Below, one piece after another: positions 7,634 through 33,716 of a DNA stretch of 43,947 bases (within the stretch, counting starts at the first letter, position 1; each line of letters opens with the position of its first letter). The stretch comes from a virus: positions 1 to 43,947 of IMG/VR virus record IMGVR_UViG_3300024351_000036; one strand, 5' to 3'. The translations under genes and the position numbers were made by a program. The notes under the pieces were generated by a model, which made no database searches, was not told the origin of the DNA, and saw nothing but the letters and a program-made list of their open reading frames with translations.

Positions 7634-8443
7634 TTAGTTCCCCTTTAAATCGCTTAATATAGTTCCTGGAGGTTCATAATTTGCAAAAACATAAAAATAT
7701 CTAGGTCCAGTGTTTTGATAAGACAATTCATGATCAGCAAACCCAAAATTTTGAACTCTTGTTTCTGGTAATTGTGCAGTTTCTAAATAACTCCATTTCG
7801 GCCCTTTTTCCATTCCGTTAAAAATAGCTGCGTCAAAATTTATTGGGTTTCTTACTTCTAGGTTTCTTTTGTCAATTGAACCTGTATAACAATTATGTGC
7901 ACCCAAAGGAATTCCCTCTGGTAGTTCAAACTTTAAATAGTTTACATTTGTTAAATCGGTCAAACTTTTCCATCTATCAAAAGGAAAACCATTAGTTGAA
8001 GCACTAATAAATTTTTCTAAACTTGGATCTCCTAATGTATAATAGTACTGTTTACTTTTTGGATCTTTTCCTGCGTTACATTCATATAAAAATGATATGT
8101 ATAAAAAAGGTTTTTCTTCTAAATAATAAAATTTAAAATAAATACTTGTTTTAAATCCGACTTCCTTAACTAATTCCTCTGGACAACAACCAATAGGATG
8201 TCCTGATGAAAAATTTTGATCGTAAATCATAATATCGACATTTGATTTTCCATAATTTGAATTTTTTATATACTGTTTTGTCTGTGGAAACTCGTAGTAA
8301 AATTGATGATTAAAATCTCTTGGGTTAAAATTTAAATTTTTATTTTTTAAAAAAAGCCAAGATGGACTTTGTGATCTCCAATTGAATCTTGGATCTGTAA
8401 AGAAAAATCCAGCTGTTAAATTATAAACTTTGTTGTTTAACAT
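7634..8443 (-). CDS. Hypothetical protein related to a segment of the giant fibre protein
   Basis: This protein of 269 residues starts at ATG 8443, overlapping the giant gene's stop by one base. It is aromatic-rich and beta-like. Its C-terminal half (an A.H.C pair, then HELSYQNTGPRYFYVFANYE) runs parallel to residues about 1,610-1,710 of the adjacent giant protein (A.HGC, then HESTLTRQNSNPIFYVAASY). It therefore appears to be a detached duplicate of one domain of that protein. An accessory fibre role is likely; I do not recognise a named family. Confidence 0.55.
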   Translation of the reverse strand: MLNNKVYNLTAGFFFTDPRFNWRSQSPSWLFLKNKNLNFNPRDFNHQFYYEFPQTKQYIKNSNYGKSNVDIMIYDQNFSSGHPIGCCPEELVKEVGFKTSIYFKFYYLEEKPFLYISFLYECNAGKDPKSKQYYYTLGDPSLEKFISASTNGFPFDRWKSLTDLTNVNYLKFELPEGIPLGAHNCYTGSIDKRNLEVRNPINFDAAIFNGMEKGPKWSYLETAQLPETRVQNFGFADHELSYQNTGPRYFYVFANYEPPGTILSDLKGN

Positions 8444-11400
8444 TATTTTCGTCCTGCTGCAACATAAGGTGGTTTATTTGGCTTGCCATTAAACTCTCCA
8501 GTTGCCCAATCTAAATAAGCTTGTTCTGCCGTAAGGTTTTTGCCTGGTATACTATAAAAACAAATATCTTTAGAGATGTTTTGCTCTCCGGTTACTTGAT
8601 ATTGTTTTTGCTCTCCTTTGACATTTACATTAACTGTATCTAATGAATTTCCTGGAATAGATTGCAAGCATCCATCTTCATCTATGTATGTTTTGTATTT
8701 AATAGTCATTTGTGCACAAAAACCAACTTCTTTTGGTTGTTGTACAACTTCACCATTAACCAAAGCATTTTTAACATTTGATTTACAAAAATTACAAGGT
8801 TCAAGTTTGCCTCCAAAATTATCTATGTTTGTATCTGTGTAAGGAGGAGTTGCAAATTTTTGTCCATTATAATCTCTTTGAACACAAGGAGGTTTTGGTT
8901 CATTACCACGCCTTAAATTATCTACAACTACAGCTGGATTGCCTGGTTGTGGTACTCCAGCTATACCTCCACCACCACCAAAACCACCACCACCTAAACC
9001 AAGACCTCCTAAACCACCTAATCCGCCTAAACCGCCTGGATAACCATATCCACCGCCAAAACCTCCTGGTCCTGGTCCTGGAGGCAAACAGTCTAAAAGA
9101 CCTGGAGTTCCTCCATAAATAGCATGTTCACATATTTTTTTAATTCCACAAGCTGTATTTATAAGTATAGATTTACAACATTTATTAACTATATTAGTTA
9201 TAATTCCATAAACACCTCTTATATAAAAAGTATATACTTCTTCTCCTGGTGGACATGATCCATTAACAGGATTAGTTCCGGTTGGTAATGGATTTGGTGG
9301 TTGTGGGCGTGTAGGACCAGTAACAGGATTTGTAGAATTAGTACCAATAACACCTGGGCCAACAGCATATGGTTCTGGTTTAACCAAAGGACTGTCTGGG
9401 TTAATAGCTAAAGCAGAAGAATTAAAATTATCATCTGGATCTTCAGCACCTTCTGGATTTGCTAAATCTTGCGAAGGAACTATTTCTCCAGTAGGATTTC
9501 CATCTTCATCTACATAAGGTCTTCCAGTCGCAGGATCTATTTGTAAGTTATAAGTTAAATTATTAAAATTTGAAACAGTTGTACATTTTCCATAAGAAAG
9601 CATGAATGGATCAACATTTTTAATGTTTGCTGACCAATGAGACATAATGTCAGCTTGCGTAACTGGTGCTATATTAGATAAAGATGTTAATAATTCTCCC
9701 CATTGAGCAGCACTAATAACCATGCCCTGACCTTCTGCCATAGCTGAAGGAGAACCATTAAATCCAATAAGATTTTCACCACAAGGACCATTCTTTTCTA
9801 GAATAGCTTGTTGTAATGAACCACTCATATTTGAACTACTGAATGGGCCTACAAGCGGAACATAATCGCCTTCGTTATATAATTCATTTGGCTTATTTAT
9901 TGAAAAATATTTTTTAGGATCTGTTTCTTTTCCATGAAAGTAAGAAGAACATGCTTGTCCAACTAAACTAGCAGCACTATCAATAAACTTGCTTCCGTTA
10001 TTTCTATTTAACCAAAGACCTTTTAACAAACACGGTCCAAAACCAAAGTTAACAGCTGAATTAGTTCCATTTAACATATTTCCTATTTCAAGCGTGTTAT
10101 GATTACCTATAAGTGCTATAGTTCCATTTTTAAATCTATGTAAACCAACTTCTGATTCTGGATCTGGATAATAAACCTCACATCTTGGATTACAAATTGC
10201 ACCAGCTACGAAATTTGGTAACCAACCAGTATCTCCAGATATATTTACAGAACCTCTATAGTATGGGTCTGGTCCATAAAGAAAACCACGCTCATATGGA
10301 TCGTTATAAAAACCAATAGTATTAAAAGTTACAACTAAGAAATTAGAATAACCATCTTCTTCATTACCTCTTCTTGTAAAAGCAGGACTTAATATAAAAT
10401 AAGCTGTTTGTGCAGAAAATGTGTAGCCTTCTGGGGTTGTATATTTACTTGTTTTACAACCAGTTTTTATGTGTTCATCAATTTTTATATTTAATGAATC
10501 AGTGATTGGATAAGAAGGTTTTCTACAATTTGTAGCATCTAAATGAGGAACTGGAAAAACATTGCTATTAGCTAAAACATTTGTTAACGCAAAATAATTT
10601 CTTTGTGCCTCTAATAATCCCATTGCAGACGCAGATATTGATGGTAACACAACGCCAAAATCTGGATTATTTTGTGCTGGAAAATCACCGCAATTAAAAA
10701 GATAAGATGTATCACTTCTGTCGGGACTTCTAATATCGTGAATATTTGTTCCATGAACTGAATGTTTTAACTGAGTAAATCTTAACCAAGATCTTCCAAT
10801 TCTACCCTTTTCTTTTTGTGAGTAGTTCCAATAACAAACGGTATTCGACATAACTGGACCACCAGAATTATTTACTGGATCGCCAATGTCATTTTCAATA
10901 ACTTTTCTTACATAACCACCAACAGTTATATAGATTTTACCATTTCTAAATGTAATTCCATCGGGCATTTTAAGAGCAGTACCAGAAGGACCAACGGTTG
11001 TAGTTGTTCCTCCCGGCCCTGTAGTTGTTGTAGTAGCTGTAGTCGTGGTTGTAGTTACAACAGGAGGTAATGGAGGACGATTAATACTTATTTTTGTTGT
11101 TGTTGTTTGAGTATTTGGTGTTGTTGTAGTAGTTGTTATTAAACCTGTGCAATCTGGTTCTAATGTAATTCTTGTGGTATTATTATATTCAATATTTGTT
11201 CCGCCTATATGCCTTATTTCTTTTAACATACCTCTGATATTATATATATTTCCTATAGAGTATGCATCTAATGTTTGGTATATAGAAAGAGGGTTTTTAG
11301 GATTATAACTTGCAGCAACATAGAAAATCGGATTTGAATTTTGTCTTGTCAAAGTTGATTCATGAACATAAAATTCTGGTTGAATATAACCATATTTTAA

Positions 11401-14400
11401 AAGCGATCTTCCATAAGGTAATTGTTTAAAAGAACATTCCCACCTAGATATAAAAGCTTTTTGTTGTTCTTCATTTTGATAAGGAACAATTTCTTTTATA
11501 TTTTTATCATAAAATACTATACCAACTAAACAACCATGACTTGCATGCCAAGGATCTCTATTCAATACGACAGAATTAAGATATTGTTTTTGACTTGGAT
11601 TTCTAATTATTATAGGAACAAATCTTTCATCTTTAAATATAGAGCCTGTTCCTGAAAGTTGATCGATTATTTGTTTTTGTGAATCATTTAATTGTGGATA
11701 TGATTTTTTCCAAAAATAAAATGTTGTTCCTCCAGATTGATATTCTTCCTGTGTATCAAACCAAAGTTGTAATTGCCAAGTTATATAATGAAGACCTATA
11801 TTTATATTTGATCTAGAAGAAAAACCTCTTAAAATAATACTTGTGTTTATAAATCTTTTTGTGTTTAAGTTGAAAAGACACTTTCTTGGAATGTTACAAC
11901 TTTTTAAAAAGTCATAATATGGACCAGTTTCTTCAGGTGGATATTCATTGGTTAATGGATCTGTTAAAATAGAAATTGGTTTATAAGCAAAATAATATAA
12001 AGTTGGATCATTATTAGTAATAAAATCATTAGATGTTAATTTTTCAAATCTTCCATCTGGCAAATCTGTTACATAAATTCCAGTATAAGGACTAGTACTA
12101 TATTGTTTATAATAATTTAAAAATAAATTTAATTCAGGACAACAATTATTTGCTGGTTTAGATAAATTATTTAAATTAAAACAATATTGAAAAGTTGATG
12201 TCAATTCTGCTTTAGCTAAATCGCATGGTGTAGGAGGTGCACTTGTAGTAGTGGTTGTAGTAGTGGTAGTGGTAGTTGTACAGATAGCTAAAGAAGCTGC
12301 CTGTAAAGCAGTTTCACATTCTTCCTGAGATGTGTATATTCCACTTCCATCAACTTCACAAACACAATCAAAACAATCTAAAGCTTCGTTATAAACAGAT
12401 TTCCAACTTGGACATGGAGTTGTACTAGTGGTAGTTGTTGTGGTTGTTGTAGTAGTCGTAGTCGGAGGAGTAATACTACTACATTCAACATGGTGAACAT
12501 GAGCATTGCCATTAAAGAAACTGGTTATTACAAATTTATCGGTATCGGTGTTTTCATTTTTTGGAAAGAATTCTATGTTATGAAATAAATAGTCTTCACC
12601 GAGATCATATTCATGCCAATTAAAACTATCAAATGTAAAATATATATATCTTTTATCAGTTAATGCTATCGCACCTATTCCATTTGAAACTACATCTATA
12701 AATTTTACTGGGGCATTAGCATTAATATTATTTATTATTACTGATTGCCACTGAGTAAAATTATTTGGATATGAAACTTTAAGATTACCATTATTATCTA
12801 TTGCTAAATAATGCAAAGAATCAAAATCTATTCTTTTGTAAGTGGATTTGAGTGTTATGCCTTGGTTTTGAGCTATTATAAATGTATTTGAATTTCCTTT
12901 TTTAACATAAACATCATCCGATGAACTTGTTGATAATATAAAAATATCACTATTATTTGTAATTGGTTCTAAATAAGCATCTCCATTAAATGTACCTTCA
13001 AAAATTTTACCACTTCCAAAATAACACTTATATACATTGTTGTTTTTAGTTAAAAAATAGTTTTTTGTAACAGAAACTACATATTCTTCAGAAGTTTCAA
13101 AAATTAATTGTTCTGGAGGTAAAATACTTGGAGCAATAATCATAGAAGAATCTGTGTTTAAAACAGCTTCTATATTAAAATTAATATCAATAGGCGTATT
13201 AAAACTAGAATTATTTGGTGTGTTTATTAAGTTATAACCTAAATTATCAAAAAGATCATATCTAATTTCTGTATCAAATAAATTAATGTCATTTGTTTTA
13301 TAAAATGTCTCTAAATTTCCAAGTATATAAATAATGGCTGTTTTATTTGTATTATTACCAATAGAAGATAAATAACCTTTTTTAATATATGGACTTGGAG
13401 AAGTAGCTTTTTCAACTTTTACTGTTTTCCAAGTTCCAAAACACTCTGGAGGTGCTTGAGTAGTTGTTGTAGTCGTTGTTGTGGTTGTTGTCGTTGTTGT
13501 CGTAGTAGTTGTGGTGGTATTTAAACTAGTAGTTGTTGTAGTTGTATTAAAATTATTTTGTAATACATGCACATCGCAAGAACATGATTCTGTTAAAAAT
13601 TCAAAATTTGGAATTGACTGAAATTTATTGAAAGTTGTAACAAATTTAGGTTCTATTATTGAAGTGTTATTTTTATTAGTTGGACTATTAAAACTTCTAT
13701 ACATAAAAGGAAATTTTTGATCATCAGTATTTCCAAAATAAACCGGAAGAGTTTGATAAAGCAAAACAGTTTCTATGCCGGTTTTTAATGGAACAGAAAA
13801 ATTATTTGAAACAAGAGATATTTTAAAGTTATCTAATCCTAGATCACCAAGTTCTGTTAAATTAGGTTCAAAAAGTTTTATATATGGTATTTTTATAATA
13901 TTTAAACATTCAACTGGAGAACCAAAAAAAAGCACATCATTTAACTGATCGGTTAAGCTTTTTCCGGCTTCGCCAGGTTCATAAAATTCATAACATTGTT
14001 TTCGCAAAACAATATACAAACTGTGCCAATCAGCATCAGATGCAACATATTCCAAATTACATTTATTATAATCGGTATCCAAAAGTATTTTATAATCTGT
14101 AGCGTTGTCATCGCCTTGCTCAAGAATAAATTTAGAAATACTTGGTGCAGTTCCTGATGGAAGACCGTTATTTTGTAATAAATATTTAAATGTATAAAAT
14201 TCAAATGGTGTAGCTACAAAGAAATTTGAAACAAAGGTTGTGTTTCCATTTATAATTTCGGTAGTACGATTTTCATGAATAAAAATAGAACCTTTAATGT
14301 CATATTTATCTTCAAATATTTTTACAAAGTTATAAGTTATAAAACCAGAAGCATTTTGTGTTAAAGTTCTGCATTTTGTTTGTGCTTCTTCTATTTCTTC

Positions 14401-19324: not shown

Positions 19325-19327
19325 TTC

Positions 19328-19786
19328 TTATCCCTCTTTTGCAACAAATTCTTTTCCAGAAGATGCACATATTACACTAACAGCCCCATTTGGAATAAAA
19401 CCACTTTCAAAACTTAATTGACCACCAGTAAGAACTGGGTATGAATTTGTATCTGTAGCAACACCATCTATATTTACATACATAACTGTATCGGACAAAT
19501 TAACAAATAATAAATAATTTCTTTGTGGTCTTGCAGCAAAAACAGTTTGAGCCACATTGGCTTGAGTTATAGTTCCAGAGCCATCTGTTAAAGTACCAAA
19601 AGTTGAAGCGTCTACATAATTAATGCCAAAAGTTTCTTCTATGGCTGGTTGTGGTAAGTCTTGATATATTTTTGCACCACCAAGATAAGTTCCTCTATCA
19701 GTACTTTCAACTCCTGGTGGAGTTTGAATATAAGCACCGCCATAAACAAAATTTCCACTACCATCAATCCTATTTAAATCTGCCAT
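19328..19786 (-). CDS. Small virion structural protein (unknown family)
   Basis: This 152-residue protein starts at ATG 19786 behind GAGGTGAGAA. The N-terminal 75 residues are Gly/Thr-rich. Residues about 80-150 form a beta-sandwich-like pattern (RPQRNYLLFVNLSDTVMYVN, then a GGQLSFESGFIPNGAVSVIC segment ending near the C-terminus) that I have seen in small phage structural proteins whose exact role is unclear. It sits between a candidate head-tail adaptor and the 981-residue fibre protein, so it may be a decoration or fibre-attachment protein. Confidence 0.5.
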   Translation of the reverse strand: MADLNRIDGSGNFVYGGAYIQTPPGVESTDRGTYLGGAKIYQDLPQPAIEETFGINYVDASTFGTLTDGSGTITQANVAQTVFAARPQRNYLLFVNLSDTVMYVNIDGVATDTNSYPVLTGGQLSFESGFIPNGAVSVICASSGKEFVAKEG

Positions 19787-19794
19787 TTCTCACC

Positions 19795-20654: not shown

Positions 20655-20655
20655 T

Positions 20656-21735: not shown

Positions 21736-21768
21736 TTGATTATCCTCTTAAGAAGTTGTGCAAATTTA

Positions 21769-21777
21769 TATACACCA
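21769..21777 (-). promoter_or_regulatory. TGGTGTATA motif, copy 5 (weakest)
   Basis: A variant of the recurring TGGTGTAAT motif directly after the stop of the 39-residue ORF and about 34 bases before the membrane protein start. It differs at two positions, so it may be chance. Confidence 0.2.
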
Positions 21778-21897: not shown

Positions 21898-22402
21898 CGT
21901 CAATTTCTTCTATACTTGTGGCATTTTCAACAGCTTTTCTTCTACTTGCAAACACACTTGACAGTTGTGCCCTAGCAGAACCATACTGTAATAATAATTG
22001 TACCATTTCGTTTATAGAAGTAAAACTTATAGCTGTATTATCTAAGGCTATAATTTGAGGTAGTGGCAAATTTAAAGCAGCAGCTTCTTTTGCAAGAGCG
22101 AATACGCCAGATATAAGAGCCACATCATTGGCTGATAAACCAAGACTAAATCCTTGATTAGAATTCCAACCTTGAGCAATGGCAGCTTCCCATTCCTCAT
22201 CAATCTTGGCCAATTTTTCAAGTTTCTTTTCTTGTAGTGGCCATTCACTAATAACTTGTTGTGCAGCTTGTTTTTGCTGGTCTGTGGAAATATCTGGGTC
22301 TTTATAAACTATTCCTATAAGTCCATCTTCTTGAAAATAAACATTTTCAATAGGGCAAACTGCCATTACTTTTTCGTTCAAAATTTGCATATTGTTATTC
22401 AT
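21890..22402 (-). CDS. DUF4376-like protein, candidate fibre assembly chaperone
   Basis: This 170-residue soluble protein starts at ATG 22402 behind AGGTGAAAC, seven bases after the 2,248-residue fibre gene. Residues about 40-65 are a charged helix (QQVISEWPLQEKKLEKLAKI). The C-terminal part (an ALDNTAISFTSINEMVQLLL segment, then SRRKAVENATSIEEID) has the pattern of DUF4376 domains, which often lie at the end of phage tail-fibre proteins or in fibre-assembly proteins. Its place directly downstream of a fibre gene supports a chaperone role. The family match is from memory of the pattern, not a search. Confidence 0.5.
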   Translation of the reverse strand: MNNNMQILNEKVMAVCPIENVYFQEDGLIGIVYKDPDISTDQQKQAAQQVISEWPLQEKKLEKLAKIDEEWEAAIAQGWNSNQGFSLGLSANDVALISGVFALAKEAAALNLPLPQIIALDNTAISFTSINEMVQLLLQYGSARAQLSSVFASRRKAVENATSIEEIDGV

Positions 22403-22409
22403 GTTTCAC

Positions 22410-25400
22410 CTAGCACCACAAAACAATTCCACAATTCACTCCATACCAATTTGCTGTTGATGATGCGTTTTGAATAGGGGTTACATAATGGTAACCAATA
22501 CTGCTGGTATATCCATGTGTTGAAATAGTTCTTACAACATATCCTGAGATTTGCGAATCAGTATAAGCTGTTCCAAAAAATGATGTTGTAGAATCCAATC
22601 CGAAACCAGCTTGAGCAGTTGATCCGGCAGCACCGGTTCCAACAGCCAATACCCCAGTTATTAAAACTGGAGACTCATTAAGTCCATTAATAAAATTAAG
22701 TCTGGTAACGCTTGCTCCACCATTCCATTCTCTACTTGCACCACTCCATGCAAAATTAAGTGAAAAAGCGGTAACAAAACCATGCCTTAAAATTCTGTTG
22801 TGATTGTTCCATAGGTAACGATTGGCAGCAGAATCTTCAGTTGTAGTTGCAGCAGTTGCCCTAAATGTTCCAAGATACCTTCTGCTTAAATCTGTTGTTT
22901 TTACATAAACACCATTTTGAAAAGATATTGCAGAACTTCTTGAAGAAGTAGTACCCCATGCTACTGGAGGGTCTAATGCTAATGTTCCAGAACTTAAATA
23001 ACCAAATACATCATACAATGTTCCAGAAGATAATCCTGAAAGTGCTAATGTTTTTTCTGTGAAAGAACAATTTACCCAAGAAGAAGATGATGTGTTATAT
23101 AAACTTATTTTATCACCATTATAAGGTGTGTAGTAGACATTAGATGCTGATGTGACATCAGAAGTTGTTACTGGTGTACCAGATGTTAATGTCAATCTTC
23201 CACCTGAAAATAATCCTTGTACTTCCCAACTAGGTGCTGCTGTTCCGTTAGAACGCAAGACCTGACCAGATGTTCCAGCAGCAAGAAATGAAGTCGCTCC
23301 TGAACCTGTGTTGTAGGGAATCTGTCCTGCACCACCGCCAAGCAAATTGGTAATTCCGTTTGTCCAGCTTAAGTTTCCGCTACCATCTGTTTTTAAAACA
23401 TAGTTGTTGGTTCCAGCAGTAGTAGGCAATGTTAATGTGTAATTGGTGGCTATAGTTGCTGGAGATTGCATGGCAACATAATTGCTGCTATCAGCGTCTG
23501 CAAATCTTATGTCTGTCTGTGCATTTAGGTAAAGATTTCCGGTGGCATCAAAATAACTGTATACAGTAGTTCCTAGATAATCTCTGAACTCTAGTAATGG
23601 GTATGTCTGACCACTTGCACCAAAAATTCCAAAAACACCAAATGCAGCATTATTGCTGTAAAGAGCTAATTGATCATAAGCTGATGAGCCATATGAAAAG
23701 GAGGAAGTAGCTGTAAAACCAGCAGAACCATCATTGTATTGAATATCTCCAGTAGAGCCAGCAGCACTTGCACCAGCAGCACTAGTCCAAGATAATGTTC
23801 CTGCACCATTAGTTGATAAAACTTGTCCAGATGTTCCATCGGCTGTTGGATAAGATAATCCAGCAGCAACAAGAGTACCAATAGTAGCTTGTCCAGCTAT
23901 TCCAGCACCACCAGCAACAATTAATGATCCAGTACCAGTAGTTGTACTAGCAGTAGTATCATTGATAGTAGTAGCACCAGTTGGACCGATAGAAAACAGA
24001 GTTGCTGTTGTACTATCTTTTAATATAACTAAATTTCCAGTTTGTGATGCAACAGCATTTATCGTTAAAGTATTGTCTGTTGTTACAGTTTCAGTAATCG
24101 TTAATCCACTTAAAGTTCCAACACTAGTTATAGAACTAGTATTCATCCAACTTGGTGCTGAAGTTCCATTGCTTTTTAAAATTTGACCACTTGTGCCAGC
24201 AGCAAGAAATGATGTAGCACCAGAGCCAGTATTATATGGAAGTTGTCCTGCACCACCGCCAGCAATATTTGTTGCAGATGTAGCATTACCGCTTAATGAA
24301 GCAGTTATAGTTCCAGCCGAAAAATTTCCCGAAGCATCTCTTTGTACTACATATGAAGCAGTATTTGTTGAACTGGAATTAATTCCTATTGTTCCAGTTG
24401 ATGTAATAGTTCCACCAGTAATTGGCGAATTTGTGGCAATCGAAGTTACTGTTCCATTACCTGTACCAGCACCGATAGAAGTTCTAAATGTAGATGCAGA
24501 CTCTGCTGTAACAGTATTGTCTGCATTAACTTTTAAAAATGTTACTGCTGAAGGATTTGTTAGCGTAAATAAATTACTTCCTACTGTTGTACCACCAAGA
24601 CTAGTTCTTCCTGTAGCAGCTACTAAATTTGTTGAGCCACCATCCCATTGACGGCGTTCAGAATATGCGGAATCCCAGTTGGTCTGACTTGCCGAAGTTG
24701 GTAGTGCATAGCCAGTATCCATCGCAATAGCGATTGTTCCACTAGATGTAATCGGAGAATTTGTAACTTTCATTCCTGTTGGAACAGATACGCCAACAGA
24801 TGTTACAGTTCCACCTGAAGATGGAGACGAGTTAGTAATTGTAAACGAAGGGTAAGTACCAGTAACCGATATGCCAGTTCCAGCAGTCAATGTTACAGTC
24901 TGATCTGGTGAACTATTGGTAATAGTGAAATTTGGATAAGTACCGGAAGTAGAAATTCCTGTTCCAGCAGTCAAAACAACAGTTTGATCTGGTGATGAAT
25001 TAGTTATCACACCAGTCGTATTATTGTATGAAATACCAGTTCCAGCAGAAAGAGCGGACCTAGCCCTAGTATCTGTGTAATAAAGATTTGAGCCTTCACT
25101 TATACTAGATGTTGATCCAGCTACATTTTCCCAAACTTTAGAAGAACTATTGTATTGAATAATATCATTATCAGCTAAAGTTCCACTATTAATGCTGACA
25201 TTATGTAATTCTTCTAACTCATAACCATTTTGTATATTTACTAATATAGAACCTTGATTAACACTTACATTTACTACAGTTCCAATAAATACAGCATGAT
25301 CTGGAGCAGTTGGTTTAGTAGTAGTTAAACCACCAGCAGTAGTTGGCGATAACCACAATGTATTTCCAGCAGAAAAGCTAGAAGTGTTTACATTTTCTAA

Positions 25401-28400
25401 AAGTCCTTGAGCTACAACAAAACCATCAGCATTATGATTTATTGTTTCTGCAACAAGGGCATATGTTTTACTAGAATCAGTCTCTGTATTTGCTTGTGCT
25501 AATGCTACTGTTGGTGTGCTACCACTTGCACCGTTTACATAAACAACTTGTTTTGGACTTAATGTAGATCCAGTAGAATTTTTAACTTTAGTTCTAAAAT
25601 TTAATACTTCTTTAAATTCTAATTCACCAAAACCATCTGTGCTTAAAAACTGTCCACCTATTCCATCAGAAGGTGGTAATGTCCAAATTGTGTTTGCAGA
25701 AATTGAATCAGGAGCTTTAAATCCAACATAATTACTTCCATTAGCCACCAACTCTAAAAAACGAAGTTCGCTAGTATTTCCAGCAGAAGAACCATATGGG
25801 GCGATGCTTATTTGACCAGAGCTATATGTGAATTCAGCAGTTCCATCAAATGATCCTGCGTTATTATATTGTAATTCTCCAGAACTTCCTCCTGGCGTAA
25901 CAGTAGCTGGATCGCCTTGAAACCCTTGGTTACCCTGATCACCTTGGAAACCCTGATTACCTTGGTCACCTTGGAACCCTTGGAACCCTTGGTCACCTTG
26001 GAAACCCTGATCACCTTGATCACCTTGGAACCCTTGGTTACCCTGATCACCTTGGAAACCCTGATTACCTTGGTCACCTTGGAACCCTTGGAACCCTTGG
26101 TCACCTTGGAATCCTTGGTTACCTTGGTCACCTTGGTTACCCTGATCGCCTTGAAACCCTTGGTTACCCTGATAACCTTGGAACCCTTGGTTACCTTGGT
26201 CACCTTGGAAACCCTGATTACCTTGGTCACCTTGGAAACCTTGATTACCTTGGTCACCTTGAAACCCTTGGTTACCCTGATCACCTTGGAATCCTTGGTT
26301 ACCTTGGTCACCTTGGTCACCTTGGAAACCTTGACTACCTTGGTTACCTTGTAATCCTTGATTGCCTTGGAAACCTTGGTTACCAGTATCGCCTTTATCA
26401 CCAGTTCTAGCGAAAGTTAATAAAACTTCATCTTGATCAGAAAAAGAACCACTACCAGAAAGATAAGAAACATCTATATCAAAATAACTTGGACTAGAAT
26501 CAGATAAAGAATTTATTGCGTATATAGCAAAAACATTTGGTGAAAACTTTTTAGATATCTTTACATGACCTTTAATAGTACTTGTTGAATCATCTATTGT
26601 ATTTAAATAGATAGACAAATCTATATTTGCATTGTTTGGATTATCATCAATTAATAAATGTGTTGCAGAAGAAATATCAGAATTATTAAATCTTATATAA
26701 TTATCGCCTGGATCGCTTATAGATGTATTTAATCCATCAAATTTATACTCAACAGTTACACCGCCGAAATTTCCATCATTACCTTGTGAGCCTTGCGATC
26801 CTTGAATTCCTTGTAAACCTTGTAATCCCTGATTACCCTGTAAGCCTTGAGTGCCTTGATAACCTTGAGATCCACGATCAACAATCATATCCCAAAAATA
26901 TTCTTCTGGTGCATTTCCAGCAGAACCAATCGTAATCATCATTACCCATAATTGGCCGTTATAGGAAACTGCATCTCCAGCATTATAAACTATGCCACTA
27001 TTATAAGTACCAACATAATTAAATGGTTGTGATCCTTGATAACCTTGATTGCCTTGGTAACCTTGAAAACCTTGATCACCCTGAAAACCTTGTTCGCCTT
27101 GATAGCCTTGAAACCCTTGGTTACCTTGATCACCCTTGCTTAATACTAAATCCCAATTGCCTGGATAAGCAGGAGGAATGTATACTGCTGCACCAATGTA
27201 ATTACTCATTACATAAAGAGAACCATCATAAGTTACTGCTTGACCAACAGAATATGTGACTCCATTATTATAAGCACCAAGATAATTAAAAGGTTGAGAA
27301 CCTTGATCGCCTTGGAACCCTTGGTTACCCTGATCACCTTGGAACCCTTGATTACCTTGGTCACCTTGAAAACCTTGGTTACCCTGATCACCTTGGAACC
27401 CTTGATTACCTTGGTCACCTTGAGAACCTTGGTTACCCTGATCACCTTGGAACCCTTGGTTGCCTTGGTCACCTTGAGAACCTTGGTTACCTTGATCACC
27501 TTGGAACCCTTGATTACCTTGGTTACCTTGGAACCCTTGGTTGCCTTGGTTACCTTGAAAACCTTGTCTACCTTGAAAACCTTGGAACCCTTGGTTGCCT
27601 TGGTTACCTTGAAAACCTTGTCTACCTTGAAAACCTTGAAAACCCTGTATACCTTGAAAACCCTGCGGTCCTTGATTACCAGCATTATTTGGTTCAAAAA
27701 TAGTATGTATAATTCCATTACTGTCTAAAACAAAACCTTTCTTATCTACAACATTTATAGCAAATTCATTTATTTGCATATCGCCAGAATTTGGTATAGA
27801 TCCAGCTATGTAAGATCTTTTTGGTTTTATTGCTATATAAGGATCTTGTGTTGTATGCGTAGGTGCTACTGTTGTAGTAGTAGTCGTTGTAGTTGTGGTT
27901 GTGGTCGTAGTAGTTGTAGTTGTAGTAGATTGATTATATGCAGTTATTGATACATTAAAATTAACATTACTAATCCAAGAACTTGAATAAAAATCAAAAT
28001 AAAAAGTAGATCCAGTAGGAACAACAAAACTTTCATTAAAACTTAAATTTATTGGATATACATATGGTTCTGGAGGTTGACTAAAATTTGTATATGTACT
28101 ATCTGAAATTGGATAATTAAAACTACCTTTATAAACTAAACCACTACCAGATATATTTAATGTTACGAATGGTGGATATGCATCTCCTGTTTCTGGATCA
28201 TAAGAAAGTATCTCTATAGTTACATTTGAAGATGGCGTTATTGGAGGTTCAAGTGGAGAATGAATTGGACCTGGTCCAGATGGAGAAAGAACCATAGAAA
28301 ATGAATCAGAACTAGCATATGGCCAATCTGTACTTGGACCACCAATAGAACTAAATGATGTTTGATAATTTAAATAAGATCTAAACTTAACAACAGATTG

Positions 28401-29156
28401 TTGAGGTGATTGCGTTGTAGTTGTGGTTGTTGTAGTAGGATTTGGATTGATATAGCAATCAAGTTTTGCAAATTGATCACCGCTAAATGTAATTAATTCA
28501 GTTATTATATATGTTCCACTTATATCTCCAAAACCACCACTTAAAATAATAAAATCATTAAATGATAATATATCTCCAACTTGTAAATCATAAGTAGTCC
28601 ATGTAGAACCATTAAAAAAATTAATTGCCGGACCAACACCAACCATACTAGCTGTCAAAAGTTGATAAGGGCCACCAGTAAAATAAAATCCGTTATTTGA
28701 AGTTATTGAAGCTCCACTAGGGGTATTACTAGCAGAAGAGCTTGAAACATCTATGCTCCAATTGGCAAAACAATCTCCTGAGTTATCTGGAACAAAATAA
28801 AAACTACCACTAGAACCCACTTCAATTCCATTAGCAATAATTGAAATTTGTGATCCAGCATCAATATATATAGGAAAAGAAAAAGAAAAAACATGAGGAA
28901 GCATTGAAGCTGTTTCATTAATATAATCTATAGTTCCATTAGGACCATAGACTCTTAATATTAAAGAAGCACCAGTAAATTGAGCAAAAGCTGAGTATTG
29001 GGCTAATAAATAACCAGACTCTGATGCATTAAAAGAAAATACAAAATAACCTGGATTTGGTTGATTGTTTGCCTGATAAACTAAATATGGATCTTGATAT
29101 GTTCCAGAGCCTGTATATGTAGCATTTATTATAGATTGATCGATTGTAAATGACAC
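22410..29156 (-). CDS. Giant collagen-like tail fibre protein, about 2,248 aa
   Basis: I choose GTG 29156: it overlaps the upstream TAG by one base and lies eight bases behind GGAGGA, whereas an in-frame TTG two codons earlier is too close. Modules: N-terminal beta domain (about 1-235); poly-Thr (240-248); beta region (250-405); poly-Thr (410-430); collagen blocks (about 491-622 and two shorter ones) interleaved with two copies of a YNxGxxYxxGxAVxYxGxLxVM module; a beta domain ending FARTGDKGDTG; a long collagen block (about 919-1,082); then a C-terminal receptor-binding-type part with repeated GTGIS/TITNSSPDQTV strands and a SERRQWDGGSTNLVAATGRT segment typical of phage tail fibres. It is a probable trimeric tail fibre; the C-terminus likely contacts the host. 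Confidence 0.8.
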   Translation of the reverse strand: MSFTIDQSIINATYTGSGTYQDPYLVYQANNQPNPGYFVFSFNASESGYLLAQYSAFAQFTGASLILRVYGPNGTIDYINETASMLPHVFSFSFPIYIDAGSQISIIANGIEVGSSGSFYFVPDNSGDCFANWSIDVSSSSASNTPSGASITSNNGFYFTGGPYQLLTASMVGVGPAINFFNGSTWTTYDLQVGDILSFNDFIILSGGFGDISGTYIITELITFSGDQFAKLDCYINPNPTTTTTTTTQSPQQSVVKFRSYLNYQTSFSSIGGPSTDWPYASSDSFSMVLSPSGPGPIHSPLEPPITPSSNVTIEILSYDPETGDAYPPFVTLNISGSGLVYKGSFNYPISDSTYTNFSQPPEPYVYPINLSFNESFVVPTGSTFYFDFYSSSWISNVNFNVSITAYNQSTTTTTTTTTTTTTTTTTTTVAPTHTTQDPYIAIKPKRSYIAGSIPNSGDMQINEFAINVVDKKGFVLDSNGIIHTIFEPNNAGNQGPQGFQGIQGFQGFQGRQGFQGNQGNQGFQGFQGRQGFQGNQGNQGFQGNQGNQGFQGDQGNQGSQGDQGNQGFQGDQGNQGSQGDQGNQGFQGDQGNQGFQGDQGNQGFQGDQGNQGFQGDQGSQPFNYLGAYNNGVTYSVGQAVTYDGSLYVMSNYIGAAVYIPPAYPGNWDLVLSKGDQGNQGFQGYQGEQGFQGDQGFQGYQGNQGYQGSQPFNYVGTYNSGIVYNAGDAVSYNGQLWVMMITIGSAGNAPEEYFWDMIVDRGSQGYQGTQGLQGNQGLQGLQGIQGSQGSQGNDGNFGGVTVEYKFDGLNTSISDPGDNYIRFNNSDISSATHLLIDDNPNNANIDLSIYLNTIDDSTSTIKGHVKISKKFSPNVFAIYAINSLSDSSPSYFDIDVSYLSGSGSFSDQDEVLLTFARTGDKGDTGNQGFQGNQGLQGNQGSQGFQGDQGDQGNQGFQGDQGNQGFQGDQGNQGFQGDQGNQGFQGDQGNQGFQGYQGNQGFQGDQGNQGDQGNQGFQGDQGFQGFQGDQGNQGFQGDQGNQGFQGDQGDQGFQGDQGFQGFQGDQGNQGFQGDQGNQGFQGDPATVTPGGSSGELQYNNAGSFDGTAEFTYSSGQISIAPYGSSAGNTSELRFLELVANGSNYVGFKAPDSISANTIWTLPPSDGIGGQFLSTDGFGELEFKEVLNFRTKVKNSTGSTLSPKQVVYVNGASGSTPTVALAQANTETDSSKTYALVAETINHNADGFVVAQGLLENVNTSSFSAGNTLWLSPTTAGGLTTTKPTAPDHAVFIGTVVNVSVNQGSILVNIQNGYELEELHNVSINSGTLADNDIIQYNSSSKVWENVAGSTSSISEGSNLYYTDTRARSALSAGTGISYNNTTGVITNSSPDQTVVLTAGTGISTSGTYPNFTITNSSPDQTVTLTAGTGISVTGTYPSFTITNSSPSSGGTVTSVGVSVPTGMKVTNSPITSSGTIAIAMDTGYALPTSASQTNWDSAYSERRQWDGGSTNLVAATGRTSLGGTTVGSNLFTLTNPSAVTFLKVNADNTVTAESASTFRTSIGAGTGNGTVTSIATNSPITGGTITSTGTIGINSSSTNTASYVVQRDASGNFSAGTITASLSGNATSATNIAGGGAGQLPYNTGSGATSFLAAGTSGQILKSNGTSAPSWMNTSSITSVGTLSGLTITETVTTDNTLTINAVASQTGNLVILKDSTTATLFSIGPTGATTINDTTASTTTGTGSLIVAGGAGIAGQATIGTLVAAGLSYPTADGTSGQVLSTNGAGTLSWTSAAGASAAGSTGDIQYNDGSAGFTATSSFSYGSSAYDQLALYSNNAAFGVFGIFGASGQTYPLLEFRDYLGTTVYSYFDATGNLYLNAQTDIRFADADSSNYVAMQSPATIATNYTLTLPTTAGTNNYVLKTDGSGNLSWTNGITNLLGGGAGQIPYNTGSGATSFLAAGTSGQVLRSNGTAAPSWEVQGLFSGGRLTLTSGTPVTTSDVTSASNVYYTPYNGDKISLYNTSSSSWVNCSFTEKTLALSGLSSGTLYDVFGYLSSGTLALDPPVAWGTTSSRSSAISFQNGVYVKTTDLSRRYLGTFRATAATTTEDSAANRYLWNNHNRILRHGFVTAFSLNFAWSGASREWNGGASVTRLNFINGLNESPVLITGVLAVGTGAAGSTAQAGFGLDSTTSFFGTAYTDSQISGYVVRTISTHGYTSSIGYHYVTPIQNASSTANWYGVNCGIVLWC
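25911..26403 (-). repeat. Collagen-like block with 27-bp unit (GFQGDQGNQ)
   Basis: About 160 residues, largely repeats of the nine-residue unit GFQGDQGNQ with little DNA drift. The near-identical DNA copies make it a likely site of copy-number change. Confidence 0.9.
26777..26874 (-). repeat. Short collagen-like block of the 2,248-aa fibre
   Basis: About 33 residues of GYQ, GLQ, GNQ and GSQ triplets before a beta domain. Confidence 0.8.
27028..27135 (-). repeat. Short collagen-like block of the 2,248-aa fibre
   Basis: About 36 residues of GFQ, GYQ, GEQ and GDQ triplets between the two copies of the YNxG...AVxYxG module. Confidence 0.8.
27294..27681 (-). repeat. Collagen-like block with 27-bp unit
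   Basis: About 129 residues of GFQGDQGNQ and GFQGNQGNQ type. The DNA repeat unit resembles that of the block at 25911-26403, so recombination between the two is conceivable. Confidence 0.9.
27869..27929 (-). repeat. Poly-threonine linker of the 2,248-aa fibre, tract 8
   Basis: About 19 consecutive Thr residues before Val-Ala-Pro, in mixed Thr codons. It resembles the linkers of the 2,647-residue protein. Confidence 0.88.
28413..28438 (-). repeat. Poly-threonine linker of the 2,248-aa fibre, tract 7
   Basis: Eight Thr residues between Asn-Pro and Gln-Ser-Pro. Confidence 0.8.
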
Positions 29157-31216
29157 TACCAAGTTCCTCCATCTACATCAACCCAAACAAGTTGATTAGA
29201 ACTATTGTATGTTAATATTTGTCCGGTAGATCCACCAGATGGAAAACTTGCTTCACTGCCTTGAAATCCTTGATCTCCTTGATAACCCTGATCACCTTGA
29301 TAACCCTGTTCTCCTTGATAACCCTGATAACCTTGTTCTCCTTGGTATCCCTGAAACCCTTGTGAGCCAGCAGTAAGAATTATATCTTCTTTTGCCCAAT
29401 GATTTATAGAATTTGGATCATATCTATATACCCATAAAATTAATGGATCTGTGTCATCTGGAGCAAATGCCCATTGATAAACTTCTGGAGGACCACTCGG
29501 ATAAGTTGTTAAAAGATGAGTTTCGTTTTCAAAAGTTCCTATAAATTCTGAATAATGACCATCAATACCTTGATAACCTTGAGAGCCTTGATAACCTTGT
29601 GTTCCTTGAAATCCTTGATTACCTTGAAGACCTTGATTACCCTGTAAACCTTGATTTCCCTGCAATCCTTGATTACCTTGAAGTCCTTGGTTGCCTTGAT
29701 TACCTTGATGACCTTGAAAACCAATAGAGCCAACAAGACCTTGTCTACCTTGACTGCCTTGAAGACCTTGATATCCTTGTAAGCCCTGATAACCTTGTGG
29801 TCCACGAATCGGGCCAACATTATCCCAATAAACAGGGCTAGTGCCTGTGTATACAACTCCGTCTCCAATAGCAGCAGTTCCATTGTCTGGATTAGGACAA
29901 GATTGACTAGCAGATCCTTGTGCTGTAGATGTAAGTAACCACATATCTCCAATAGTGGCAGTTCCAGTTTGATTATTGAAAATATTTTGCCAAGTATCAG
30001 AACCTTTTATTTCAACTCCAGCACCTGTTTGTCCTTGATTGCCTTGACTTCCTTGATAACCTTGTAAACCTTGACTACCTTGATTACCTTGCAAACCTTG
30101 ATTGCCCTGTAATCCTTGATTACCTTGAAAACCTTGATTACCCTGAAAGCCTTGACTACCTTGAAGTCCTTGATTTCCCTGAAGTCCTTGATTACCTTGA
30201 AGACCTTGATTTCCTTGAAATCCTTGTAAACCTTGATTACCTTGAAGACCTTGAAAACCTTGACGACCCTGAAGACCTTGTAAACCTTGATTTCCTTGTA
30301 AGCCTTGATGACCTTGTGTTCCTTGATTACCAATATCACCAACAAGGAGTAAAGATATTGTAATTTGTTGGTTGTTACTTAGTGAAAACCCAGAAGATGT
30401 ATTAACATGTTCTATGTTAAACGAAGCATAAGTACTATTAACTGTATTTGAAGATGTTATTTTAAAAATAGAAAATTTAGAATTATCATTAATTGGTTGA
30501 ATAACTATATATGATTTTACAAAATTAGTAGAATCATCTAATAAAGAATAAATAGAACTAATATTATTAGAATTTATATCTAGACCACTAAATAAGGCTA
30601 TTGTCGCAAGAGAAAAATTAGAGTTATTTAATCTAAACTGTTCTGGAGTTGGAACACCAGATGTTAATGTACTAAATAAATAATTTATATGTAATGAACT
30701 AACGCCTTGATAGCCTTGAGATCCAACTTGTCCAGTTATATTAACATCCCAAACATTACTACTTCCAGTGCCAACTACATAATCCACATCAACAACTATG
30801 CTCGATGTGTTTGGATCAGTAGATAATATAAGACCTTCTAAAAAATGAGATGTATTATTATTATCTACTATCCTTACTCTAATACCAGCCCTAATAGCAT
30901 CTATAGATAATACAGAAAGAGTTTTTAGTCCAATAGTTTTGGATATAGTTGATAAAGATGATGTAGCACCGAAAGAAATGCCTATTGAACCTTGATCACC
31001 TTGAAAACCAATAAAACCTTGGTTTCCTTGATTACCTTGATTACCTTGATTTCCTTGATTGCCTTGTGAACCCTGAATACCTTGAAGACCTTGAGAACCA
31101 GTAACAACTCCTGGAATAAAGTTAGTGCCATCAAATTTAATGACATTTCCAGAAGAAGGAACACCTACAAAATCGTCTTGATCTTGTATTCTTGATGGTC
31201 TTTTGCTGAAATGCAT
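29156..31216 (-). CDS. Collagen-like fibre protein, 686 aa
   Basis: The start is ATG 31216, three bases after the sulfotransferase stop. A short N-terminal segment (residues 1-38) leads into four Gly-X-Gln blocks separated by beta domains. One domain at about residues 175-290 (FRLNNSNFSLATIALFSGLD) matches the beta domain of the following 2,248-residue fibre (IRFNNSDISSATHLLIDD), and both end with GD.G running into collagen. The C-terminus (GSTGQILTYNSSNQLVWVDV) is the kind of short motif seen where phage fibre chains join, and it recurs inside the next gene. It is probably the proximal part of a fibre whose distal part is the next gene; the one-base overlap would couple their translation. 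Confidence 0.78.
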   Translation of the reverse strand: MHFSKRPSRIQDQDDFVGVPSSGNVIKFDGTNFIPGVVTGSQGLQGIQGSQGNQGNQGNQGNQGNQGFIGFQGDQGSIGISFGATSSLSTISKTIGLKTLSVLSIDAIRAGIRVRIVDNNNTSHFLEGLILSTDPNTSSIVVDVDYVVGTGSSNVWDVNITGQVGSQGYQGVSSLHINYLFSTLTSGVPTPEQFRLNNSNFSLATIALFSGLDINSNNISSIYSLLDDSTNFVKSYIVIQPINDNSKFSIFKITSSNTVNSTYASFNIEHVNTSSGFSLSNNQQITISLLLVGDIGNQGTQGHQGLQGNQGLQGLQGRQGFQGLQGNQGLQGFQGNQGLQGNQGLQGNQGLQGSQGFQGNQGFQGNQGLQGNQGLQGNQGSQGLQGYQGSQGNQGQTGAGVEIKGSDTWQNIFNNQTGTATIGDMWLLTSTAQGSASQSCPNPDNGTAAIGDGVVYTGTSPVYWDNVGPIRGPQGYQGLQGYQGLQGSQGRQGLVGSIGFQGHQGNQGNQGLQGNQGLQGNQGLQGNQGLQGNQGFQGTQGYQGSQGYQGIDGHYSEFIGTFENETHLLTTYPSGPPEVYQWAFAPDDTDPLILWVYRYDPNSINHWAKEDIILTAGSQGFQGYQGEQGYQGYQGEQGYQGDQGYQGDQGFQGSEASFPSGGSTGQILTYNSSNQLVWVDVDGGTW
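29258..29368 (-). repeat. C-terminal collagen-like block of the 686-aa protein
   Basis: About 37 residues of GYQ, GEQ, GDQ and GFQ triplets. Confidence 0.8.
29557..29804 (-). repeat. Collagen-like block of the 686-aa protein
   Basis: About 83 residues dominated by GLQGNQ units. Confidence 0.85.
30018..30340 (-). repeat. Main collagen-like block of the 686-aa protein
   Basis: About 107 residues of GLQ, GNQ and GFQ triplets. Confidence 0.88.
30980..31099 (-). repeat. N-terminal collagen-like block of the 686-aa protein
   Basis: About 40 residues, with a run of repeated GNQ triplets. Confidence 0.82.
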
Positions 31217-31219
31217 TTT

Positions 31220-31783
31220 TTATTCCAAAAATTTTGGTGTTATTCCATTTATACAACCGTCTATATAGAATACACCACAAAAAGCAGCTATTTGTTTTGC
31301 TGTAGATTCAGTATTTTGCATTAAGTCTGAGTAATTAACTATTAATTTTCTGCCTGAAAAATTATTAAAAATATTTTCAGCTGTATTATACTGTTTTTCT
31401 ATAGTATCTGGAAAAGCTTGATCGCCCATAAGCATAGAATATTCAATATTGGCTTTGTTTATATTTCTTTTTGCCCATATTATACTAGTTTGTATTGAAG
31501 TTTCTGATATGAACTTATTCCATGCATCTTTTTTTAGAAATTCAAATGATCTTGTTCCAATTTTTCCTTGTTGAACTGTTTTTAGTTTTAAATCCCAGTA
31601 ATTTTTTGGATTTGTATAAATATATCTTGTGTACTTATCATTGAAACTTCCTGTTGGATACCAGTCTGGATTATCATTTGCATTCTCTCTTTCTCCCATA
31701 TTTATGCCAAGAGAGTTTAATATTTTGGCTATAACGCTAGTTCCAGATCTATAAGAACCAATTATAATTGTGCAATCTTTCAT
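31220..31783 (-). CDS. Sulfotransferase family protein
   Basis: This 187-residue protein starts at ATG 31783, overlapping the glycosyltransferase stop by four bases. It opens with IIIGSYRSGTSVIAKILNSL; the SYRSGTS loop (residues 10-16) is the 5'-phosphosulfate-binding loop of PAPS-dependent sulfotransferases. A later strand (RKLIVNYSDLMQN) fits the position of the 3'-phosphate-binding region. Such enzymes move sulfate from PAPS to a hydroxyl group, often on a sugar. Its placement directly after a glycosyltransferase and before collagen-like fibre genes suggests sulfation of a glycan, possibly on the virion. At 187 residues it is on the short side, but the core motif is intact. The acceptor is unknown. 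Confidence 0.8.
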   Translation of the reverse strand: MKDCTIIIGSYRSGTSVIAKILNSLGINMGERENANDNPDWYPTGSFNDKYTRYIYTNPKNYWDLKLKTVQQGKIGTRSFEFLKKDAWNKFISETSIQTSIIWAKRNINKANIEYSMLMGDQAFPDTIEKQYNTAENIFNNFSGRKLIVNYSDLMQNTESTAKQIAAFCGVFYIDGCINGITPKFLE

Positions 31784-32715
31784 TCTAAATCCTCGTTTCG
31801 TTCTTTGAAATAATTCTCAATTGATTTTAAAAAGTCTTTATTGTCGCCTACATATCTATACAAACCTTGATCGTTAACTAAGTCTTTAGAAACATTAAAA
31901 TTAGTATCTTTTAAAATTTTTTGTCTTTCTATATATTTTCTATTAACTTTATCGCCATGATTTAAATGAAAAATAGGTTGATCTATATAATCAAAATTTA
32001 TTTCTACATTAGATTTGTTATTTAGTATATCTTTTAAAAAACAAATAACGCTATCTTGTTTTCTTTTTATAAAAGGTATTTCTATGTCTAGGCTTAAATT
32101 AAGCCATTTAAAAAGATTAATAGTGTCTCCGCCACCTATAATGCATTTATCATATAATGGATTATTCAAAAGTGTTTCTTTCTTTGTAATCCATGCCATT
32201 CCTGGGTTACCAAAAGTATAATCACTTGAATTAAAAGTTTTAATGTAATTTTCTTTTCCGTCTGATTTAATTATTTGCGATGAAACACTCGGAGTGCTAT
32301 GACTATAAAAGCCATGATTTCTATAATGATTTTTTGGTAAATAATAAACATCAGAAAATGGTTGTATAAATAAATTTTCTTTTTGATCCAATTTATTTTT
32401 TGCTTCTTGCACCCAATTATCATCACTAAATAAAACATCACCATCAATAAAAGCTATATACTTAATAGAATCTGGCATTTTTTCGGCTAGATAATTTATA
32501 ACTCTTTCCTTTTGCCAAAGTAATTGATCTGACTTTAAAGCAAAAAGACCTTGCATATTTAAGTCAAAACTATTATTTGTAGAAATTTCTATAGGAACAA
32601 TTACACATTCATATTTAAGCATATGATTATAACAAACATTAAAATTTCTAAATAAAGATATTCTTTTAAAATGATTCCAATAATACATTATTATTGCAGT
32701 ATCTAAATTTTTCAT
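31780..32715 (-). CDS. Glycosyltransferase (GT-A type, DxD motif)
   Basis: This protein of 311 residues starts at ATG 32715 with a four-base overlap on each side. The N-terminal half has strand-helix alternation, a LLWQKERVINYLAEKMPDS segment, then IKYIAFIDGDVLF, in which D91 and D93 form the DxD motif that holds the divalent metal and the nucleotide sugar in GT-A enzymes. A later GGGDTINLFKWL segment fits the acceptor side. It is cytosolic by sequence. The donor may be a GDP-sugar made through the dehydratase at 42191-43186; that link is inference. It lies between a glycosyltransferase-like unknown and a sulfotransferase. Confidence 0.8.
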   Translation of the reverse strand: MKNLDTAIIMYYWNHFKRISLFRNFNVCYNHMLKYECVIVPIEISTNNSFDLNMQGLFALKSDQLLWQKERVINYLAEKMPDSIKYIAFIDGDVLFSDDNWVQEAKNKLDQKENLFIQPFSDVYYLPKNHYRNHGFYSHSTPSVSSQIIKSDGKENYIKTFNSSDYTFGNPGMAWITKKETLLNNPLYDKCIIGGGDTINLFKWLNLSLDIEIPFIKRKQDSVICFLKDILNNKSNVEINFDYIDQPIFHLNHGDKVNRKYIERQKILKDTNFNVSKDLVNDQGLYRYVGDNKDFLKSIENYFKERNEDLE

Positions 32716-33716
32716 GCTTTTACCTTAATTTCTTGTGAATAAGGAATAAGTTGCATTTGATTTAATTCAGCTTCTTTTGAAGCTATGGATTGACCAAAAA
32801 ATACTGTGTTTGGAAAATAAGCTAAATATTTTGTAAACATAAGTTTATCTATATCATCGTATGATGAATAAACAAAACAATAAGATTCATCTTCTGGATT
32901 AAATTTTTCTGGATCTACAAACTCAACTCTTTTTTCTAATCCAAATCTTTCTAACCAAATTTTTGTGCCAATAAAATTTATTTTAGTTTTAATTGGAAAA
33001 GCTATAATTTTACAAGCCGATTGTGCCAAGACAATAAGTTCTGCTGGAGATGAACCTACATAAACAACTTTTTTTTGATCAGCTAATTGATAAAGTTTTA
33101 AATAATCATCGGCTATAAAAGATTGATCTATTCCGTCTGGAAGAATTAAAGGAAAATCAAGTTCATCAAAATCAATTTTTTTATTATCAAAAAGTAAATT
33201 TAACTTAGGCCAAAAACAAACTAGGCTATAATAACGCATAAAAGAATTTATGCTTTCTGTTATACTATTTTTTACTTCAAAATTTTTATATAGATCTTTT
33301 ATGTATCTAGATGAAAATAAAAATGGACCAAATGTATTTTTTTCTAAAAAATTTGTAATGTTATAGTCAGGGCTTCTAGATTGAAAAATTGGTCCTACAT
33401 AAAGTTTTAAAATTGCTACATCTATTTGATATCTAATTAATGGTTTCCATGTAGACAGATTATTATAAAAAAATTTAGAAAGTTTTTGTTTTCCGTCTAA
33501 AAATAAAAAATATTCATAAGAGTCTAAAGATGAAGCTTCATATAAGAAACTTTCAAACAAATCTCTTCTGTTTTTTCCATTTATATATACTACTTTTCCG
33601 CCAAAGTCAGTTTCTTCTAAATTGCTTTTGTTTCTTGCGTTGTCAAAAACTACCAAATTGCTAAATGGTTTTGTTCCAACTTTTATTTCTGATACTCTAG
33701 GACTGCATATTTCCAT
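32712..33716 (-). CDS. Unknown protein, possibly glycosyltransferase-related
   Basis: I place the start at ATG 33716, seven bases after a perfect AGGAGG. A longer frame to 33758 would run over the candidate promoter and binding site. The product is 334 residues. Residues about 65-105 (SYEYFLFLDGKQKLSKFFYN, then NLSTWKP) recall the acidic metal-site region of GT25 or similar GT-A enzymes, but the second Asp is replaced. The C-terminal third (KKVVYVGSSPAELIVLAQSA) looks like a Rossmann-type fold. It is first in a three-gene unit with a glycosyltransferase and a sulfotransferase. It is not a confident family match. Confidence 0.6.
   Translation of the reverse strand: MEICSPRVSEIKVGTKPFSNLVVFDNARNKSNLEETDFGGKVVYINGKNRRDLFESFLYEASSLDSYEYFLFLDGKQKLSKFFYNNLSTWKPLIRYQIDVAILKLYVGPIFQSRSPDYNITNFLEKNTFGPFLFSSRYIKDLYKNFEVKNSITESINSFMRYYSLVCFWPKLNLLFDNKKIDFDELDFPLILPDGIDQSFIADDYLKLYQLADQKKVVYVGSSPAELIVLAQSACKIIAFPIKTKINFIGTKIWLERFGLEKRVEFVDPEKFNPEDESYCFVYSSYDDIDKLMFTKYLAYFPNTVFFGQSIASKEAELNQMQLIPYSQEIKVKA

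Follow-up and report, generated by a model that had tools for sequence, protein, structure and literature searches.

A sulfotransferase-like gene cassette ahead of putative collagen-like and polythreonine fibre genes in a tailed phage: a candidate exchangeable glycan-tailoring module

The window considered here is the virus record IMGVR_UViG_3300024351_000036, a stretch of 43,947 bases, and all of the genes treated below lie on its minus strand. It is best read as containing a large tailed phage's structural operon, and its major capsid protein is 100% identical to that of two longer records of 206 kb and 221 kb. Between the capsid gene and the first of several genes for very large collagen-like proteins is a cassette of three tightly packed genes, encoding a 348-residue protein with no family match, a glycosyltransferase (GT)-like protein and a protein with the predicted fold of a 3′-phosphoadenosine-5′-phosphosulfate (PAPS) sulfotransferase. 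Comparison with relatives suggests that these sugar genes belong with the large proteins, which from their repeats, modules and position are probably virion fibres. The cassette diverges in the same way as the putative fibres and is replaced by other enzymes in other lineages, and within the capsid family genes of family GT2 co-occur with polythreonine (poly-Thr) proteins. The most likely reading, to which we assign a rough probability of 0.42, is that the cassette is an exchangeable glycan-tailoring module that evolves together with the fibres. The genes at the centre of the argument are as follows.

33821 to 34810, minus strand: major capsid protein, at the upstream edge of the cassette (PHROG 3922, 1.5e-5; 104 relatives).
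32712 to 33758, minus strand: unassigned cassette protein of 348 residues (no family match; AlphaFold2 model poor, with a predicted local distance difference test (pLDDT) score of 50).
31780 to 32715, minus strand: DxD glycosyltransferase-like protein of 311 residues (PF00535 0.003, below the cut-off; 4-nt overlap with each neighbour).
31220 to 31783, minus strand: PAPS-sulfotransferase-like protein of 187 residues (PF13469 2.7e-7, P-loop, AlphaFold2 model and Foldseek).
29156 to 31216, minus strand: collagen-like protein of 686 residues (PF01391 2.9e-43; starts 3 nt past the sulfotransferase-like gene).
22410 to 29162, minus strand: collagen-like and poly-Thr protein of 2250 residues (PF01391 1.9e-55; CBM_5_12 1.2e-8; Thr runs of 8 and 19).
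16379 to 19324, minus strand: collagen-like protein of 981 residues (PF01391 3.1e-90; CBM_5_12 2e-9).
8443 to 16386, minus strand: poly-Thr protein of 2647 residues (nine Thr runs, each 5 to 20 residues long; without a collagen block).

In the direction of translation, the order runs from a GDP-mannose dehydratase-like gene through an ERCC4-type nuclease, the terminase, the portal, a 251-residue protein and a protease-like gene (named by eye) to a small protein and the major capsid protein. The 348-residue, GT-like and sulfotransferase-like genes follow, and after them come the collagen-like protein of 686 residues, the collagen-like and poly-Thr protein of 2250, a set of small genes, the collagen-like protein of 981 and the poly-Thr protein of 2647. 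Neighbouring cassette genes overlap by 4 nt, and 3 nt lie between the cassette and the first collagen gene. The longest frame of the 348-residue gene begins at 33758, slightly past the 33716 given in an earlier note on this DNA.

That earlier note had placed a PAPS-type sulfotransferase beside the fibre genes, and this assignment is sound at the level of the predicted fold; the protein is short and catalysis is putative. It scores 31.5 bits on PF13469, above the cut-off of 27, two homologues fall just under it (24.5 and 26.2), and there is no match in NCBIfam. A Y-R-S-G-T-S loop is invariant across three lineages, as is R106, while Ser116 is not; the motifs expected of PAPS sulfotransferases are a phosphate-binding loop and an Arg-Ser pattern. 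In the AlphaFold2 model (pLDDT 68, predicted template modelling score 0.70), the 13 best Foldseek matches in the PDB are all sulfotransferases, led by 4gbm (1.4e-5) and TPST2 (2.8e-5), and the first kinase appears only at rank 14 (6.2e-4). Superposition on those 13 is loose, with template modelling scores to the query of 0.45-0.63 and root-mean-square deviations of 5.7-9.4. Searches of solved structures by sequence gave nothing usable for either the sulfotransferase-like or the GT-like protein, and a search of a phage collection with the sulfotransferase query gave no match at E 1e-3.

The DxD glycosyltransferase of the earlier note stands by its motif and falls short by its profile: D91 and D93 are unchanged across the four sequences compared, including a protein of Xanthomonas phage XaC1 with only 28% identity (2e-17), and the score on PF00535 is 18 bits against a cut-off of 23.3. 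Two further genes that had been called GT-like, those for the 348-residue protein (32712-33758) and the 251-residue protein (36748-37503), could not be confirmed as such, having no match in Pfam, PHROGs or NCBIfam at E 0.1. A sequence search of solved structures found no relative of the 348-residue protein, and neither the GT-like nor the 251-residue protein significantly matches the GT2 profile.

All four of the large repeat proteins described earlier are present as open reading frames on the minus strand, with lengths of 686, 2250 (previously about 2,248), 981 and 2647 residues. The Gly-X-Gln blocks and poly-Thr linkers ascribed to them are unevenly shared, with collagen in three of the four and poly-Thr in two. 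Only the 2250-residue protein combines both features, because Thr runs (counted from five Thr upwards) are limited to it and to the 2647-residue protein; these two have the long tracts of a mucin-like protein, with runs of up to 20 Thr. On the collagen profile PF01391 the three collagen-like proteins score 145.9-296.3 bits against a cut-off of 27.2, and carbohydrate-binding modules of family CBM_5_12 are present in those of 981 and 2250 residues. The 2647-residue protein has no match in Pfam.

Relatives were collected by capsid protein in two listings, the best 80 loci being taken from each, and most of the records are fragments. Graded by capsid identity to the window they form clades A (100%), B (97%), C (93%), D (76-80%), E (62-72%) and F (about 50%). 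Among the listed loci the cassette genes are present in clades A to C, whereas the 59 loci L023-L081 have none of them; some of these 59 stop shortly past the capsid gene. Identity between clade B and the window is 48, 58 and 55% for the three cassette proteins and 42-59% for the aligned parts of the large repeat proteins, whereas all eight genes from the dehydratase to the capsid retain 71-97%. In sequence, the cassette is thus diverging like the fibres and unlike the head-side genes.

Further out, the position of the cassette is taken by other genes. In clade D an 83-residue Cys-rich protein with a sub-threshold match to DUF6171 occupies the slot that follows the capsid gene (for example at 11088-11339 of locus L032), and all four clade D regions examined encode, at the opposite end of the block, a PF00535 GT2 fusion of about 600 residues, two of which were scanned and match at 9.9e-12 and 5.3e-12. 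Three collagen-bearing loci of clade E (L066, L068 and L071) have a cassette of their own ahead of the main collagen genes (11163-14762 in L068), comprising a 325-residue protein of no assigned family, a TPR plus FkbM methyltransferase protein and a GT25-type protein, the last exceeding the PF01755 cut-off in a single record of the three. As judged by sequence, the cassette has been replaced by unrelated enzymes in other lineages. In a profile comparison the 348-residue protein aligns colinearly with the C-terminal region of the GT2 fusion of clade D; this match is weak (E 0.062, probability 0.9%) and, with the model at pLDDT 50, a relationship between the two is at most tentative.

The broader association was assessed in 46 capsid clusters with at least 6 kb downstream, sugar enzymes being counted within 10 kb. 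A sugar enzyme lies near the capsid gene in 9 of 20 clusters with collagen or mucin-like tracts and in 3 of 26 without (p=0.017), and for GT-type genes alone the figures are 7/20 and 1/26 (p=0.014). In this count, short proteins of L209, L226 and L233 were classed as sugar enzymes by their R-S-G-S-H motif alone; L209 and L226, two of the nine positives, depend on that motif, whereas the GT-type count does not. As a separate observation, such P-loop-like proteins occur near Thr/Ser-rich proteins at 12742-13275 of L209, 15781-16320 of L226 and 7520-7996 of L320, where the protein has a poly-Thr gene on one side and a GT2 gene on the other; those of L209, L226 and L320 have no significant match in Pfam.

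A closer pairing links GT2 with poly-Thr. In L231 and L233, distant capsid relatives with poly-Thr, a GT2 gene of the same family as the clade D fusion lies at most 0.6 kb after one poly-Thr gene. Among 30 records of the capsid family, picked mainly for size, poly-Thr is present in 9/9 with GT2 and in 1/21 without, the exception being a 55.7-kb clade B fragment (G004). Since the nine GT2 records include near-duplicates, the count was also made by capsid clusters, giving 5/5 against 1/17 (p=2.3e-4). Five poly-Thr fragments (G003, G005, G006, G011 and G033), in which PF00535 found nothing, were left out of this search; scored as lacking GT2, they change the figures to 9/9 against 6/26 for records and 5/5 against 2/18 for clusters (p=6e-4).

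A census of GT2 loci, covering 39 clusters from 80 of 271 loci, places five of them in blocks with a fibre motif, 30 among replication-type genes and four elsewhere. All five in fibre-motif blocks have a Thr run of six or more within four genes, as do two of the four others nearby. Poly-Thr is found in 0/20 fibre-motif blocks free of GT2, a control from which the GT2-holding clusters L231 and L233/L238 were excluded, and in 4/44 of all GT2-free blocks; the four are clusters L002, L026, L039 and L070, which stand outside the 20, their block having no fibre motif. At the level of whole records, poly-Thr is present in 13 of the 23 that carry GT2. The poly-Thr protein at 16117-17961 of L231 also carries an FGE-sulfatase-type domain (PF03781, 1.9e-16).

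Several results weigh against a module tied to the fibres. Eleven of the 20 collagen or mucin-like clusters have no sugar enzyme inside 10 kb; of these, two D clusters have one further on, and L244 has collagen and none. Five clusters with linkers rich in Pro, Thr and Ser likewise show no sugar enzyme within that distance. What counted as mucin-like, as a fibre motif or as a sugar enzyme was decided once the data had been seen, and the association has no power once corrected for descent, because the capsid tree offers only two supported independent contrasts (seven on all branches). The strict co-occurrence of the sulfotransferase with poly-Thr proteins, which the earlier note had named as potential support, fails in both directions, and the sulfotransferase does not follow collagen either. 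Clade D records have collagen in 17/17, a poly-Thr pattern in 7/17 and the sulfotransferase in 0/17. Conversely, its profile matches 8 of 40 records (3/8 above the cut-off), namely seven of clades A-C and one of clade E (G025), the last with a full sulfotransferase and neither collagen nor poly-Thr. Among 41 more records it matches two, G075 weakly and G065 strongly; the latter is an 11-kb fragment with a full sulfotransferase in which neither collagen nor a long Thr run is seen. The sulfotransferase was accordingly rejected as a marker of poly-Thr. As to GT2, none of the 30 clusters among replication-type genes has poly-Thr close by; in poly-Thr contigs from elsewhere it is present in 4/30 against 0/27 controls, which is not significant (p=0.11); and its copies in the window's phage, one in the 206-kb record and two in the 221-kb record, lie away from the long Thr runs. 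Within the available flanks of 80 poly-Thr loci GT2 is seen in 5, and as a universal partner of poly-Thr it is not supported. A search of the phage collection with the GT2 query gave no match at E 1e-10.

A gap past the capsid gene that simply tolerates insertions, as part of a hypervariable block, and is filled by genes with no functional tie to the fibres would be consistent with the lineage-dependent content of the slot, including the Cys-rich protein of clade D, with the collagen or mucin-like blocks that show no sugar enzyme and with the powerless association. Such hitchhiking leaves out of account that all three cassette genes diverge as the fibres do and that a poly-Thr gene is within four genes in every one of the five GT2 clusters in fibre-motif blocks, and we regard it as unlikely. 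An exchangeable module evolving with the fibres is compatible also with what remains in the poly-Thr records: a loss of all sugar genes with the fibres retained, named in the earlier note as decisive against the link, is seen in none of the 13, seven of which have PF00535 genes, four more being clade B with the cassette and two (G011 and G033, fragments of 24-32 kb; L032 and L070) retaining at least the dehydratase.

The abundance of GT2 among replication-type genes (30/39 clusters) would fit a different role, in which the phage genome is the target of the GTs, above all family GT2, and possibly of the sulfotransferase, through DNA or nucleotide hypermodification. This appears improbable for the window, where the cassette lies inside the structural operon and where the GT2 copies of its phage adjoin what look like tail genes, next to a protein with a sub-threshold VWA match. 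In other phages, the neighbours of many GT2 loci among L257-L324 resemble, by eye, helicase, primase, nuclease and polymerase genes.

The remaining sugar-related and neighbouring genes bear on a third possibility.

36748 to 37503, minus strand: 251-residue protein between the portal and protease-like genes (alignment of six; GT nature unconfirmed).
42191 to 43186, minus strand: GDP-mannose 4,6-dehydratase-like protein (PF16363 5.5e-107).

The 251-residue protein is found in clades A to C and in many clade D loci, and not in L027, L029 or L070. The dehydratase reported earlier is upheld as a family member on Pfam and not as an equivalog, scoring 355.6 bits against the NCBIfam cut-off of 415. 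It adjoins the nuclease and terminase genes (41728-43186 in the window) in part of the loci of each clade, whether collagen is present or not, and was not detected in L053, L056, L057, L066, L068 or L071. A role as a fibre gene was rejected for it, as it occurs in collagen-free relatives and is undetected in the collagen-bearing L066, L068 and L071, which do retain its neighbours.

Its presence in collagen-free relatives is in accord with modification of the host, whereby GTs, sulfotransferase and dehydratase would alter the polysaccharide on the surface of the infected host, for instance to counter superinfection; the enzymes would then lie near fibre genes because variation of the host surface selects on both. 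The seven to eight PF00535 matches dispersed over the genome of the window's phage (G001/G002, the records of L004 and L006) fit this explanation, and pelagimyophages with collagen repeats and GTs have been read by their authors as modifiers of the host O-chain (PMC7029224). It is possible but on balance somewhat unlikely, in that the cassette is in a structural operon, between capsid and collagen genes, which is presumably expressed late for a change to the host, and in that the pairing of GT2 with poly-Thr is left unexplained.

The tie between enzymes and fibres that the earlier note proposed therefore survives in part: the predicted fold, the packing, the co-divergence and the association before correction for descent speak for it, and a strict link between sulfotransferase and poly-Thr, together with the dehydratase, drops out. 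If the cassette is indeed a fibre-tailoring module, the phage would build putative adhesion fibres from collagen stalks, poly-Thr linkers and carbohydrate-binding modules, and a swappable cassette would be translated directly ahead of the fibre genes. Priming of the Thr runs may fall to a separate enzyme of family GT2, whose gene lies in another part of the genome, the GT-like and 348-residue proteins may build or lengthen a short glycan, and the sulfotransferase may cap it, such that the decorated fibres would vary among phages together with host recognition. Placement of the glycan on the virion, Thr as its acceptor and addition of sulfate are each conjectural. The most specific form of this scheme, with sulfated mucin-like fibres on which GT2 primes poly-Thr and cassettes that extend and sulfate are exchanged like fibre tips, is doubtful. 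The GT2/poly-Thr pairing, if real, would allow glycosylated fibres of uncultured aquatic phages to be recognised from sequence, and a sulfated fibre, if true, would give phage sulfotransferase genes a function. Among the titles and abstract openings listed from the open-licence literature, no work on a sulfated or poly-Thr phage fibre was found.

Several known systems share elements of this arrangement. PF13469 genes have been described in marine OM43 phage genomes and in Synechococcus phage S-SRM01, where the authors call their phage function unclear (PMC10580990), and sulfotransferases are named as viral genes elsewhere (PMC8290583; PMC10829341, which names nucleotide sulfation). These accounts, in their available parts, draw no tie to fibres, and the window protein has only 187 residues. 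It shares its predicted fold and a putative P-loop with 4gbm, TPST2 and 3-OST, from which it differs in that short length and in an identity of only 11-17%. The XaC1 homologue of the GT-like protein, XaC1_205, keeps the DxD at 28% identity, but its neighbours are nearly all hypothetical and the first gene with a structural annotation begins 9.4 kb downstream.

Phage GTs have been treated in several studies (PMC10202952; PMC12619734; see also PMC10434257) and may indicate capsid glycosylation (PMC11256854). Mycobacteriophage virions are reported to carry glycans on capsid and tail tube (cited second-hand in PMC12619734), whereas the candidate targets in the window are the collagen and poly-Thr proteins, with a sulfotransferase-like protein in addition. 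The host-recognition region of pelagimyophages resembles the window in its collagen repeats in structural proteins and its GTs in the tail-fibre region (PMC7029224); there the authors favour host modification, and their main text never uses the word 'sulfotransferase'. A further parallel is BclA of Bacillus spores, a collagen-like stalk with short O-linked glycans, for which a putative GT gene lies near that for F-BclA (PMC11952670). BclA belongs to a spore rather than a virion, and a sulfotransferase does not figure in the available account of it (PMC11952670). Its Thr/Ser-rich collagen region is itself modified, whereas the proteins of the window keep Thr runs and Gly-X-Gln blocks apart.

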